Source: Edaphobacter flagellatus (GTDB lineage: Bacteria; Acidobacteriota; Terriglobia; Terriglobales; Acidobacteriaceae). Taken from it: DNA of 64,000 nucleotides. Below, in pieces: positions 17,975 to 21,534 of this stretch. Both the position numbers and the translations under genes were made by a program. Every line of letters starts with the position of its first letter. Position 1 is the first letter of the stretch. Location: positions 1,674,001 to 1,738,000 of the forward strand of contig NZ_CP073697.1 of the NCBI RefSeq assembly GCF_025264665.1. Reading direction: 5' to 3'. The notes beneath the pieces were generated by a model. The model saw nothing but the letters and a program-made list of their open reading frames with translations. It had not been told where the DNA came from and ran no database searches.

Positions 17975-18922
17975 TCACGGCAGGAAAAAGCGTCCCATTG
18001 CAACAGGAATGGTGCGCCCTCCCACGAACACATTTGTGACTTTGTCACCAACTCGGGCAGCAGAGACGTATAGGCGGCTTGGACGAAGCATCTCGACACC
18101 CTGCTCGATGACGATGCGCCGTTCACTTTCCACTACGCCGTGCTTCACCAACCACGCTATGGATGGGCCAGCTGCCGAACCTGTAGCGGGGTCTTCGCCG
18201 TTATAGAACTGCATGCGGGCGTGCCAGTCAGCACCTGATCCGCTCTCAGCCCGCGTAAGAAAATAGAAAAACTTTGCTTTGTTATGGCGGAGGTATTCAC
18301 TGACTTGCTGCGTCTGCGGCACGCGAAGTTGCGCAGACGCAGCGAGAGATTTCAGTGGAACGATGCAAAAAGGATTGCCCGTACTGACTGTCTGTATGGG
18401 CAGAGCTGGATCGAGGTCATCGACTGAGATTTGAAGAACCTTTGCGACCGTGGCGTGATCTTGTATCTCACCAAAGATGGGATCGTTCTGCCGCATCGTT
18501 GCGAAAACGCCTTGCTCGCCAGGCTTTGAAGGAGTGAAGCGAACAGGAATTGGGCCGACATTCAGATCGAGCACGATCTCTTCGGCAGCACGCAGCCAGG
18601 GATGATGCCAGTAGAGCCAGCTAGCTGTACCGAGAGTGGGATGTCCGGCGAAGGGGAGTTCTTCAGCAGTCGTAAAAATACGAACACGCACGCCGTGGTG
18701 GTGCTCAGCCTCGGGATCGCGGGGAAGGATGAAGGTCGTCTCGGAAAGATTAGTTTCGCGAGCAAGTGACTGCATCTCCGTGTCGGTGAGTCCGCGAGCA
18801 TCGGTAAAGATCGCAAGCTGGTTGCCTTCAAGGGGTCGCTCGGCGAAGACATCGGTTAGGGCATAGTCATAAGCAACGTGTGCGGTGGTTGGAGGAGCTG
18901 CAACAGGGGGCAGATTTGACAT
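17975..18922 (-). CDS. PhzF-family epimerase/isomerase-like protein
   Basis: 315 residues of the PhzF superfamily, which has a diaminopimelate-epimerase-like two-lobed fold. The family Glu is present in NLSETTF (about residue 61) and the nearby segment GNQLAIFTD matches the family N terminus; the C-terminal lobe has GEDPATGSAAGP, which binds the substrate. No other phenazine genes are near, so this is one of the many PhzF relatives with unknown substrate, not evidence of phenazine production. It is divergent from the peroxiredoxin unit. Confidence 0.9.
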   Translation of the reverse strand: MSNLPPVAAPPTTAHVAYDYALTDVFAERPLEGNQLAIFTDARGLTDTEMQSLARETNLSETTFILPRDPEAEHHHGVRVRIFTTAEELPFAGHPTLGTASWLYWHHPWLRAAEEIVLDLNVGPIPVRFTPSKPGEQGVFATMRQNDPIFGEIQDHATVAKVLQISVDDLDPALPIQTVSTGNPFCIVPLKSLAASAQLRVPQTQQVSEYLRHNKAKFFYFLTRAESGSGADWHARMQFYNGEDPATGSAAGPSIAWLVKHGVVESERRIVIEQGVEMLRPSRLYVSAARVGDKVTNVFVGGRTIPVAMGRFFLP

Positions 18923-18978
18923 ACGGAACTCCGAGACTTATGTTTTCTATAGACCGCAATCGGGCCAATCAGCTTGAT

Positions 18979-18993
18979 GCTAGCTTAGCTAGC
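18979..18993. promoter_or_regulatory. Repeated GCTAGC motif in the divergent control region
   Basis: GCTAGC-TTA-GCTAGC. Each half is itself palindromic. It lies between the divergent PhzF gene and the polycysteine leader, near a weak promoter-like pair (TTGATG at 18974, TACAAA at 18999). A regulator site is possible; this is inference. Confidence 0.35.
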
Positions 18994-19017
18994 TGCGGTA
19001 CAAAGATTTTTGAATCC

Positions 19018-19104
19018 ATGATGATCATGCCCAACACGACCTCGATGCGCTGCTGCTGTTGCTGCGACCCGGTGGGGGGTGCGTGGATAAGCAGATCGAA
19101 GTAA
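19018..19104 (+). CDS. Polycysteine leader peptide
   Basis: A 28-codon frame beginning MMIMPNTTSM, followed by Arg and five consecutive Cys codons (TGC TGC TGT TGC TGC, 19051-19065), then Asp-Pro-Val-Gly-Gly and a TAA at 19102-19104. It ends 17 bases before a strong terminator hairpin and 110 bases before the peroxiredoxin start. Nearby ATG codons at 19021, 19027 and 19045 are in the same frame, so the exact start is open; a Shine-Dalgarno sequence is not clear and a weak promoter just upstream would give an almost leaderless transcript. By analogy with amino-acid attenuators, translation speed at the Cys run would sense charged tRNA-Cys. No protein-level function is implied. Confidence 0.55.
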   Translation: MMIMPNTTSMRCCCCCDPVGGAWISRSK

Positions 19105-19153
19105 GCATCTTCGAGTAGCGGAACCCACCCACCCACATAGCGGGTGGGTTTTT
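19066..19153 (+). promoter_or_regulatory. Candidate cysteine-responsive attenuator
   Basis: The hairpin has 9-base arms AACCCACCC (19122-19130) and GGGTGGGTT (19142-19150), and a T-run follows: an intrinsic terminator in front of the peroxiredoxin gene. Immediately downstream of the Cys codons, GGTGGG (19071-19076) can pair with CCCACC in the terminator's 5' arm (19124-19129 or 19128-19133), giving an antiterminator. A ribosome paused at the first Cys codons would leave GGTGGG free; one that reaches the stop at 19102 would cover it and allow termination. Geometry is read from sequence; regulation is inferred. Confidence 0.5.
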
Positions 19154-19214
19154 CATTCGCACGATAGATACATTCTAAAAATGGGTATGAATCCCCGAAA
19201 GGTACGCACATCCT

Positions 19215-19871
19215 ATGTCACTCCGGATCAACGATGTAGCTCCAGACTTTACCGCAGAGACAACCCACGGCACGATTCGTTTCCACGAGTGGATCGGCGA
19301 CAGCTGGGCAGTCCTGTTCTCGCATCCTAAGGACTTTACCCCCGTGTGCACAACGGAGTTGGGTGCTGTTGGATCGCTCGAGAGTCAGTTCGCAGCACGC
19401 GGCGCCAAGGTAATTGGCCTGAGTGTCGATCCGGTCGAGAATCATGGTAAGTGGGCAAAGGATATCGAAGAGGTCACCGGGTCGCCCGTAAACTTCCCTG
19501 TCATTGGCGATACGGAGTTGAAGGTTGCGAAGCTATATGACATGCTGCCGGGCGATGCTGGCGACAGCTGTGAAGGACGTACGCCTGTCGACAATGCGAC
19601 TGTGCGCATGGTCTTTGTAGTTGGCCCCGATAAGCGAATCAAGCTCACTCTGGCATATCCGATGACAACGGGACGCAACTTCGATGAAATTATTCGGGTT
19701 CTGGATTCCATGCAGCTGACGGCAAAGCACAAGGTGGCTACGCCAGCAAACTGGAAGCAGGGCGACGATGTCATCATCACTGGAGCGGTTTCCAACGATG
19801 AGGCGGATAAGATCTTCCCGGGATATAAGACGCTGAAACCATATCTCCGCACGACAACCCAGCCGAAGTAA
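19215..19871 (+). CDS. Peroxiredoxin, 1-Cys Prx6 family
   Basis: Reduces peroxides through a peroxidatic cysteine. The 218-residue protein shows the Prx6 pattern: HPKDFTPVCTTELG with the peroxidatic Cys at about residue 45, VIGLSVDPVENH, YPMTTGRNFDEI, and the family C-terminal arm (KVATPANWKQGDDVII, FPGYKTLKPYLR). There is a second Cys in GDSCEGRTP but no standard 2-Cys resolving site. GAAAGG lies at a good distance before the ATG. It follows the polycysteine leader and terminator and precedes tRNA-Cys, so its expression may depend on cysteine supply. Confidence 0.95.
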   Translation: MSLRINDVAPDFTAETTHGTIRFHEWIGDSWAVLFSHPKDFTPVCTTELGAVGSLESQFAARGAKVIGLSVDPVENHGKWAKDIEEVTGSPVNFPVIGDTELKVAKLYDMLPGDAGDSCEGRTPVDNATVRMVFVVGPDKRIKLTLAYPMTTGRNFDEIIRVLDSMQLTAKHKVATPANWKQGDDVIITGAVSNDEADKIFPGYKTLKPYLRTTTQPK

Positions 19872-19914
19872 GATAATCTTTACAAACTCCGCAGTTATTC
19901 TTGCGGGGCCAGAT

Positions 19915-19990
19915 GCACCGATGGCGAAGTGGCTAACGCGCTGGTCTGCAAAACCAGTATTCGAGGGTTCAATTCCCTCTCGGTGCTCCA
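19915..19990 (+). tRNA. tRNA-Cys (GCA)
   Basis: Cloverleaf with acceptor arms GCACCGA / TCGGTGC, anticodon stem CTGGT / ACCAG, loop CTGCAAA with anticodon GCA, T arm GAGGG-TTCAATT-CCCTC, discriminator T and encoded CCA. U73 is the expected Cys identity base. It begins 43 bases after the peroxiredoxin stop on the same strand and may share its transcript. Confidence 0.95.
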
Positions 19991-19995
19991 AGCTC

Positions 19996-20030
19996 AATAA
20001 CAAAGCCAGCTCAAGGCTGGCTTTGTTATT
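19996..20030. terminator. Bidirectional terminator after tRNA-Cys
   Basis: Perfect 15-base arms (AATAACAAAGCCAGC, 19996-20010, and complement, 20016-20030) with a 5-base loop; the 3' arm ends in a T-rich run. It overlaps the stop codon of the convergent GH39 gene and so can serve both directions. Confidence 0.85.
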
Positions 20031-21534
20031 TTGGAGAAATTTTGATCAAGGCTAACGCGTTCGGTTCAAGCTGTATTGCGAGCTGCCCTTTATCAAGATG
20101 CACAACCTCAGGTTTTTGCAGAGATGTTTCCCTATTCATCTGATCAACCTGGGAAGGAGAGGGATACTTCGGCTTTCCCATCGCCGCATAAATTGGAAGT
20201 ACGTTACTATGCTCGTTATCGACTCGTTGTATGGTGGCTCTTGCGATAGGAGTGACACCGTCTATGGAGAGCATAATCGTACGGGTGTGCGCTGGATTCT
20301 CTGGTCCAGAGTCAGGCTCTGCCAGGTTCCATACAGCAATGGAGAGCATGCCGTTCGCGTCTTTCGTCACAATCGCATTCGGTGATGGATTCGAAATACG
20401 CCGATCTCCAAGCATATGGAGCAGAGCGAATGCATAGTAACTCGGTTTATTGATTCCAAACTCTGCACGCAAACCGAATTGACCAATAAATGGCTGCGGC
20501 CCAGGACCACCTTCTTCAAACACATCAGAAAATGTCCAGAAGGACATCATGTCGACCATACCATCGCACTGCCTTATCGTGTTCGCTAAAGCAGCTCCGA
20601 CATAGGTGGTATCACGTACCTTATTCATTCCCGATACATTCCACTCCGTCCAGAACAACGGCATATTAATCTTGCCGGCCGACTTCATCTGCCCTCTCAC
20701 CTTTGCGATAGCGCGGCAGACACGTTTGCTCATTGGAATCTCTTCGTTCGTTCCAAACATGTTTTCAACGGTGTCATCGGCATAACCATGAGTTGATACA
20801 AAATCGACAGGGATATTTTTGTCTGCCGCATGTTTCAGAAAGGCATCTATCCACTGAGCGGCCGCAGTAGCAGGCCCGCCAACACGCAGTCGAGGATCGA
20901 CCGCCTTCAAATCTCTCGCCGTGTGGTCATACAGTTCGAAATAACTGCGTTGCCTTGGAATGCCGCCCCAAAAATCGATGTTCGGCTCATTCCACACCTC
21001 GAAGTACCACTGAGAGATTTCTTCAATGCCATAACGTTCTACTAAGTGATGAGCAAATGCAGTAATAAGGTCATCCCATCTTTCTATTGACTTTGGAGGA
21101 GAGACATTGGGCTTATACCAGAAGGGATGTAATGCATCAGGATTGAAGGCGAGTTTCTTCGGCATAAAACTAATTTCAACTACAGGGCGAACGCCGTTGG
21201 CGAGCAAACCATCGTATATCTGATCAACGTATGCAAAATTATAGACAGGATTCCCATGCTCGTCCTCGTTGTAGACACCCACCTCGTCATGAAGGATCGC
21301 ATGAAAGCGGACATAGCGAAAATTCGTAATCTGTTTTACAGCGCGTAGATCGCTGCGATAACTCTCGCGCAGCGAAAGAATCGCGCGGCCGGAGCCAAAC
21401 ATCTGCTCCCAGAAGTGGGGAAATGGAGTACCAGAAGAGTTCGCATCGATCACGATGTGCTCCTGCGCTCCTAACTTAGATGCGATAAGCAGAAGAAGGG
21501 CTAAAGCAGAAAATGCTCGCAAAAAACAGCGCAT
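20026..21534 (-). CDS. Secreted GH39-family glycosidase (beta-xylosidase-like)
   Basis: 502 residues with a signal peptide (about 1-23, ending in KLGAQ) and one (beta/alpha)8 catalytic domain plus a C-terminal beta region. The acid/base Glu is in FEVWNEPN (about residue 183) and the likely nucleophile in FWTEWN (about 297), the two GH39 landmarks. Family members release xylose or other sugars from xylan and related glycans; substrate here is inferred. GGGGAGCGATC precedes the ATG. It lies just downstream of the TonB receptor gene but is separated from it by a terminator. A paralogue is at 36503-38101. Confidence 0.9.
   Translation of the reverse strand: MRCFLRAFSALALLLLIASKLGAQEHIVIDANSSGTPFPHFWEQMFGSGRAILSLRESYRSDLRAVKQITNFRYVRFHAILHDEVGVYNEDEHGNPVYNFAYVDQIYDGLLANGVRPVVEISFMPKKLAFNPDALHPFWYKPNVSPPKSIERWDDLITAFAHHLVERYGIEEISQWYFEVWNEPNIDFWGGIPRQRSYFELYDHTARDLKAVDPRLRVGGPATAAAQWIDAFLKHAADKNIPVDFVSTHGYADDTVENMFGTNEEIPMSKRVCRAIAKVRGQMKSAGKINMPLFWTEWNVSGMNKVRDTTYVGAALANTIRQCDGMVDMMSFWTFSDVFEEGGPGPQPFIGQFGLRAEFGINKPSYYAFALLHMLGDRRISNPSPNAIVTKDANGMLSIAVWNLAEPDSGPENPAHTRTIMLSIDGVTPIARATIQRVDNEHSNVLPIYAAMGKPKYPSPSQVDQMNRETSLQKPEVVHLDKGQLAIQLEPNALALIKISPK

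Follow-up and report, generated by a model that had tools for sequence, protein, structure and literature searches.

The window, a stretch of 64,000 nucleotides (64 kb) from Edaphobacter flagellatus, holds at 18916-20030 of its plus strand a compact unit comprising, in order, a promoter-like site, an RNA predicted to fold as a three-way junction, a short leader ORF, an intrinsic terminator, a gene for a 1-Cys peroxiredoxin (hereinafter Prx) and a tRNA-Cys gene. Its individual elements are:

18916-18944, plus strand: promoter-like site TTGACA-17-TATGTT, from a motif scan and present at the same place in relatives
18953-18999, plus strand: conserved 5′ RNA of 47 nt, a predicted three-way junction (MFE fold and 20-leader alignment)
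19018-19104, plus strand: leader ORF, from ATG 19018 to TAA 19102-19104, an open frame with Cys-rich leader ORFs as counterparts in relatives
19051-19065, plus strand: run of five Cys codons (TGC TGC TGT TGC TGC), the putative control codons
19071-19086, plus strand: region 2, the predicted antiterminator arm GGTGGGGGGTGCGTGG, complementary to the terminator 5′ arm by pairing computation
19096-19114, plus strand: mid hairpin TCGAAG/CTTCGA, lying within the predicted antiterminator (fold)
19123-19153, plus strand: predicted intrinsic terminator (arms 3 and 4 with the T run), from scan and alignment
19215-19871, plus strand: 1-Cys type Prx with AhpC-TSA and 1-cysPrx_C domains
19915-19990, plus strand: tRNA-Cys(GCA), a second, divergent isodecoder (hereinafter tRNA-Cys2), from ARAGORN and the Rfam tRNA model
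19996-20030, plus strand: 15-bp hairpin 3′ of the tRNA, read off the sequence, the probable end of the unit

An earlier note on this DNA had pointed to the five Cys codons, terminator, Prx and tRNA-Cys as a single arrangement, and all four are found at the positions it gave and recur in relatives. The terminator arms are ACCCACCC (19123-19130, with an alternative register at 19127-19134) and GGGTGGGT (19142-19149), followed by a T run reaching 19153. A simple scan of 18850-20080 returns one promoter-like site and two terminator-like sites, as against a chance expectation of 1.0 for each; with counts this near to chance, the case for the unit is carried by conservation and not by the scan. TTGAC[AC] occurs at the equivalent place in all 23 leaders of Prx loci, and transcription probably starts at about 18951-18953, such that a start downstream of 19104, which would have undercut the attenuator proposed in the earlier note, is not favoured. 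The -35 box TTGACA is overlapped (18916-18922) by the start codon of a divergent phzF-like gene on the minus strand (17975-18922), and the TTGACAT at this overlap recurs in most of the listed genus leaders. At the other end of the unit, the hairpin at 19996-20030 went unflagged by the terminator scan, as it falls short of the T-run rule. A further hairpin without a T run occupies 19872-19914, between Prx and the tRNA, where several relatives also seem to have hairpins, albeit of different sequence; it is possibly a processing site. NCBIfam offers no family above cut-off for the Prx of the window and nothing useful for the leader peptide.

TGY runs of at least four codons are found at three places in the 64 kb, counting both strands. 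Of the 46 tRNA genes of the genome, just two have a short polycysteine ORF in the 950 nt upstream, namely tRNA-Cys2 and, as a weak instance, a tRNA-Gln. Among random 950-nt segments, 24 of 1000 contain a short polycysteine ORF and 7 of 1000 one with CCCC, the segments having been sampled from the same 64 kb and hence including the tRNA-Cys2 leader itself.

The Rfam tRNA model has 47 matches in the genome, at which ARAGORN recognizes 46 tRNAs, two of them tRNA-Cys(GCA). An initial blastn impression that the tRNA-Cys of the window is the only one in the genome was thereby overturned, the other being an ordinary copy that stands after tRNA-Gly(GCC) and lacks a leader. The two differ in their acceptor, D, anticodon-stem and T-stem sequences. 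The ordinary form is nearly universal, being detected at E<=1e-8 in 35 of 37 genus genomes (33 at full length, at least 97%) and in 58 of 61 across all genomes searched (17/17 genera), and none of 10 such loci has a polycysteine ORF within 950 nt upstream. For tRNA-Cys2, matches at E<=1e-9 occur in 109 of the 300 genomes of the family and in 22 of its 79 genera, a few of them incomplete or with less than 85% identity; in the 24 relatives from outside the family the matches are weak, and the 12 of these that were inspected are the ordinary form. Hence, the link to "tRNA-Cys itself" suggested in the earlier note stands insofar as the gene encodes a tRNA-Cys(GCA), but it concerns a second, divergent copy, with the ordinary one elsewhere and leaderless. 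tRNA-Cys2 displays the cloverleaf, GCA anticodon and U73 of a tRNA-Cys, and both GCA and U73 are constant in 32 distinct 76-nt copies picked by their first six letters. U73 is an identity element for CysRS. Given this constancy, and as one cysS in the genome exceeds the cut-off, the single CysRS most likely charges tRNA-Cys2.

We compared 30 Prx loci, i.e., the one in the window and the 29 next best matches. The upstream unit is present in 23, degenerate in one (L022) and absent in six, and ARAGORN finds a tRNA-Cys in exactly the 23 with the unit and in none of the other seven. A covariance model built from 20 leaders recovers the leader at E<=1e-4 in 33 of 37 genus genomes, and tRNA-Cys2 is likewise present in 33 of 37. 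Both occur together in 32, with the tRNA downstream on the same strand in every case (in one, G016, it is cut by the contig end). The exceptions are G018, with a leader and no tRNA match (an assembly of 550 contigs), G013, with tRNA-Cys2 and no leader, G008 and G020, with neither, and G022, with a degenerate leader and no tRNA. The slot between the leader and the first tRNA is more variable: among the 32 genomes it holds Prx type A in 22, type A together with type B in two, type B alone in four, and nothing in four (G007, G011, G021 and G035, the leader of G011 having one Cys codon).

Across the family, the leader model at E<=0.01 matches 87 of 300 genomes from 26 of 79 genera. Leader and tRNA-Cys2 co-occur in 71 genomes, with 16 having the leader alone, 38 the tRNA alone and 175 neither (Fisher p 1.9e-25, computed, like all genome counts in this work, on related genomes without kinship correction). 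In an order-level draw of 298 genomes, all 88 with matches at E<=0.001 belong to Acidobacteriaceae, though the share of the draw from outside the family is not stated, and 24 relatives outside the family yield two weak partial leader matches (E 0.06 and 0.09). Searches covering more than 40 genomes ran under the stricter filters of Infernal; family leader loci were inspected to E of about 1e-4, and some weaker matches span only the terminator part of the model.

In the inspected leader loci, tRNA-Cys2 lies downstream in 52 of 58. The remaining six lead instead to a CysK-like enzyme (L225), sulfite reductase (L226), Prx and a CysK-like enzyme (L235), Prx and tRNA-Sec (L231), a pyridine-nucleotide oxidoreductase (L221) and a TonB-receptor-like protein (L228); Pfam is the basis for L221, L225, L226 and L235, while L228 was assigned by likeness to L067. 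Conversely, a polycysteine ORF lies upstream in 25 of the 27 best-matching tRNA-Cys2 loci, and of 20 loci chosen for having no model leader, 19 were readable, with such an ORF in 12 and none in seven. L231 (G089) carries a leader and Prx type B, and its tRNA-Sec gene takes the place of tRNA-Cys2; this 96-nt tRNA-Sec had at first been suspected to be a tRNA-Cys2 variant with a UCA anticodon. L067, L075, L076 and L228 have Cys-rich leaders with terminators of the ACCCACGC..GCGTGGGT type, the protein downstream of L067 being an outer membrane beta barrel protein (Pfam) and those of the other three looking similar.

In 10 genomes (G007, G021 and G035 of the genus, and G288, G161, G141, G252, G239, G299 and G226 of other genera) a Cys-run leader is followed immediately by tRNA-Cys2, without an intervening protein gene, and the same layout is seen in G011 and in G315, which has a weaker Cys cluster (MTSALNNPAFRRCCTLPCVSWC). 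In such tRNA-only units the promoter-like site, Cys ORF, terminator and tRNA follow one another consecutively; as they have no protein gene, the attenuated product would be the tRNA. These units bear directly on the alternative that the Cys leader is a switch for Prx, with the tRNA a bystander that has its own promoter or forms a processed 3′ end. It is true that Prx is the first gene past the terminator in most inspected loci and that leader and Prx occur without tRNA-Cys2 in L235 and L231 (followed by the CysK-like and tRNA-Sec genes, respectively). However, the tRNA-only layout with a Cys run occurs in 10 genomes, the six leaderless loci among the 30 Prx loci are also without tRNA-Cys, and the scan of 18850-20080 finds no promoter-like site between Prx and the tRNA. 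We therefore consider a Prx switch unlikely. Prx as the conserved target of the leader was accordingly rejected upon finding leader–tRNA units that lack it: on these comparisons, the constant partner of the leader is tRNA-Cys2, and Prx is an optional passenger. The peroxidase link drawn in the earlier note thus survives in that a Prx belongs to the unit of the window, but not as a general feature, since the slot holds different paralogues or none.

The leader ORF itself has the composition of a control peptide in being short and rich in codons for the presumptive regulating amino acid. Among 87 leaders Cys makes up 30% of codons, with 4 to 11 per leader, and the clusters mix TGC and TGT (322 and 172, respectively), while the peptides vary widely across the family outside the Cys cluster. 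In the window three further in-frame ATGs occur (19021, 19027 and 19045), and the G run has one more base than in most relatives; as a result, the peptide ends in ...GAWISRSK at 19102 and not at the TAA 19088-19090, which is the counterpart of the stop codon of relatives and lies 14 nt before the end of the window leader. L015, a leader of a different genome, terminates in the frame used by the window leader.

The scan for stems and ORFs took 93 leaders, with the degenerate L022, the six leaderless loci, and L183 and L186 (contig-edge coordinates) excluded beforehand. A stem with a T-rich tail lies 3′ of the leader ORF in 89 of the 93, a count that keeps the best stem per leader and has no shuffle control behind it; the other four gave no qualifying ORF (L004 contains N letters, L006 is MRCRCSPARVCG, L021 is MACCRICCVAAWPVCG and L068 has one Cys only). 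The terminator arms are conserved in alignment A1. Accordingly, an intrinsic terminator is predicted between the leader and the first gene, as in leader-peptide attenuators. This is of consequence for a second alternative, in which the leader acts on translation or Rho-dependent termination and the hairpin is incidental, as has been proposed for mycobacterial polycysteine ORFs. It draws on the absence of a clear terminator at the cysD leader of this genome (see below), on the Cys leaders without terminators that PMC1262725 describes for Mycobacterium, and on the mention of translation attenuation for M. smegmatis in PMC13236596. Besides the recurrent T-tailed stem and the conserved arms, the tRNA-only units argue against it: as these have no translated product, control would have to fall on transcription or RNA stability. 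Taken together, we judge it very unlikely that translation or Rho is the point of control.

For the pairing analysis, the 89 leaders were reduced to 87 distinct ones by removing duplicates. The median distance from the end of the Cys cluster to the stop codon is 21 nt, and from there to the terminator 5′ arm 37 nt. The stretch complementary to arm 3 starts a median of 28 nt past the first Cys codon, its end lying 4 nt short of the stop; by this position, a ribosome on the first Cys codon would free the stretch, whereas one at the stop would cover it. The pairing of the G-rich stretch after the Cys run with the terminator 5′ arm, which had been read off the window in the earlier note, is possible in all 87. 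Region 2 pairs with its own arm 3 at a mean of -15.1 kcal/mol, versus -11.5 for shuffles and -4.2 for the segment preceding the Cys run, and it outdoes the latter in 87/87 leaders. Yet no more than 30 of the 87 leaders rank above 95% of their own shuffles, and the comparison of means is weak by itself, since any C-rich arm is a good partner for a G-rich stretch, as the energy of the shuffles indicates. A swapped-partner comparison is informative only for the seven leaders with another arm 3. In the five with a CACGC-type arm, their own region 2 gives -19.1 as compared to -14.0 with the common arm, and in the two with a CGCCAG-type arm the values are -16.3 and -10.1, respectively; for the common region 2, the CACGC arm (-14.7) is about as good a partner as the common arm (-14.8).

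If the ribosome is held at the first Cys codon and arm 4 has yet to be transcribed, the computed probability that arm 3 pairs with region 2 exceeds 0.5 in 84 of 87 leaders (mean 0.75); a stall on the last Cys codon gives a weaker antiterminator (mean 0.62). For the window, stalling at the first Cys codon leaves the terminator a probability of 0.05, which climbs to 0.53 for the last Cys codon and to 0.87 for a ribosome that has reached the stop, where the masking of region 2 is an assumption built into the computation. As the stop codon of the window lies about 15 nt beyond region 2, masking by a terminating ribosome would be looser here. With arm 4 present, most leaders favour the terminator at equilibrium despite a stalled ribosome (median 0.94), and the switch would thus have to be kinetic. 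Across the genus, pairing in the antiterminator helix reaches 91.7%, and its covariation is no higher than in shuffles. Within these limits, the antiterminator is computed to be exclusive with the terminator and to be freed by a stall, as the attenuator model requires.

The 5′ RNA invites a third explanation, namely that the conserved entity is a structured RNA with a three-way junction, possibly a ligand sensor, to which the Cys codons are incidental. In the 20-leader alignment, 95.4% of cells in the junction and terminator are paired, and two-sided changes, mainly in helix P2, speak for conservation of the junction in the genus. Further, in L068 (G011) the leader RNA stands directly before tRNA-Cys2 with its Cys run decayed to RRRRC, one Cys codon remaining; this locus is a natural variant on which the role of the Cys codons could be tested. 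Against this, L019 has lost the junction and kept the Cys ORF and terminator, the peptides diverge outside the Cys cluster while the clusters mix synonymous codons 322 to 172, and an Rfam search at gathering scores matches tRNA alone, with no family for the leader or the junction. A purely structural RNA is the least probable of the alternatives considered here.

Polycysteine leaders in this genome extend beyond the Prx–tRNA unit. An ORF MVFAAQRMCCCCRMLPCPCVRCCC (L253) lies upstream of cysD, with no clear terminator, and MANGRICRTTACRMCCCDAVCCCLCPTS with its own terminator upstream of sulfite reductase (L404; Pfam). Under a script rule covering 26 of 28 cysD loci, 15 of 19 genus loci and two of seven from a sister family (L247 and L256) have a Cys-rich short ORF upstream of cysD. 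As leaders of this kind precede cysD and sulfite reductase, and the theme common to the leader-bearing genes is cysteine supply, the signal for the Prx–tRNA unit is most likely a shortage of cysteine or Cys-tRNA as well. With Prx optional and the tRNA divergent, the peroxide link would then be one output of a wider cysteine regulon and not its core.

Hence, we propose, with a probability of about 85%, that the unit is a ribosome-mediated transcription attenuator responding to charged tRNA-Cys. The joint conservation of Cys run, terminator and tRNA-Cys in relatives speaks for the cysteine attenuator suggested in the earlier note, and comparison of sequences shows the conserved parts and their order, the mutually exclusive pairing, and the linkage to tRNA-Cys2 and sulfur genes; from these we infer that the ribosome stalls, that transcription terminates, that Prx and the tRNA are co-transcribed, and which condition induces the unit. 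RNA polymerase would start near 18952, with a ribosome trailing on the leader ORF. When Cys-tRNA is ample, the ribosome would pass the Cys codons and region 2, allowing the terminator to form and transcription to stop near 19153. When it is short, owing to cysteine starvation or to oxidant loss of cysteine or of the tRNA, the ribosome would stall on the Cys run, leaving region 2 free to pair with arm 3, and the polymerase would read through the resulting antiterminator into Prx and tRNA-Cys2. The output would be peroxide removal and more tRNA-Cys, the latter feeding back on the molecule sensed.

In the trp/his-type leader-peptide attenuators, control codons are combined with regions 2, 3 and 4 that form mutually exclusive hairpins. 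The present unit resembles them in both respects, and differs in amino acid, phylum and tRNA output. T-box elements also sense tRNA charging and control termination, but do so by binding the tRNA directly, whereas here a translated ORF would be the sensor; Rfam shows no T-box match in the window at the gathering threshold. Leader-peptide attenuation is already known, also for cysteine. A 2020 study by Canestrari et al., going by its title, reportedly concerns cysteine-responsive attenuation by polycysteine ORFs of mycobacteria. Several papers place such short ORFs before mycobacterial sulfur genes (PMC1262725, PMC4633059, PMC13236596, PMC9094748), which is the likeness to our leaders, and two of them describe the sulfur operons as having Cys leaders without terminators (PMC1262725, PMC4633059). 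Unlike those ORFs, which are leaderless and, according to the 2005 analysis, without terminator hairpins (PMC1262725), ours are preceded by about 65 nt of conserved, structured RNA (given the predicted start site), are followed by terminators, and have a tRNA as target in place of sulfur operons alone. A further related system is the uORFC-8-2 motif, which PMC8632094 presents as a predicted cysteine attenuator of cysS in Rhodobacterales, with two conserved Cys codons and a terminator. It shares with our unit the ribosome-mediated mode, tandem Cys codons in a short ORF and the terminator, and its output likewise restores Cys-tRNA; as described there, it is confined to cysS and Rhodobacterales, in contrast to the 4 to 11 Cys and the tRNA, Prx and sulfur-gene output in Acidobacteriaceae. 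In the window the target is the Prx–tRNA unit, and the cysS of this genome has no Cys leader upstream.

In searches of the open-access literature, outside which most subscription papers lie, judged by titles and the openings of abstracts, we found no case of a tRNA gene under a leader-peptide attenuator, nor one in Acidobacteria that combines Prx with a leader peptide or involves cysteine attenuation. Within the reach of these searches, the tRNA target, the second tRNA-Cys, the Prx link and the cysteine regulon of Acidobacteriaceae appear to be new. In textbooks, leader-peptide attenuators govern genes for biosynthesis and for synthetases. What this unit switches on would be the adaptor RNA whose own charging is sensed, and it is apparently the sole product in 10 genomes. 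The unit therefore offers a clean natural case for asking whether bacteria increase a single tRNA species according to need, and it brings Prx into the cysteine regulon. Acidobacteriaceae, which according to a 2010 survey have almost no predicted attenuator of known function, would gain a regulon that can be read from sequence.

The unit also poses the question of why a cell should produce a second isodecoder while the cognate amino acid is in short supply. Tentatively, and at somewhat less than even odds, we suggest that tRNA-Cys2 is a condition-specific tRNA that outperforms the ordinary one under starvation or oxidants, with the leader closing a tRNA-on-tRNA loop; as part of this suggestion, its advantage might lie in charging at low cysteine, in resistance to damage, or in supplying Cys for a special use. 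The settings of tRNA-Cys2 show some further variety. In L317 (G086) it begins right after siroheme synthesis genes, with no polycysteine ORF in the inspected stretch. G247 has three copies (L310, L311 and L312), two of which follow a short Cys-rich ORF, with no evident terminator in L311 and L312, and a protein gene, the latter being a radical SAM/SPASM gene in L312 and Cons_hypoth698 in L311.
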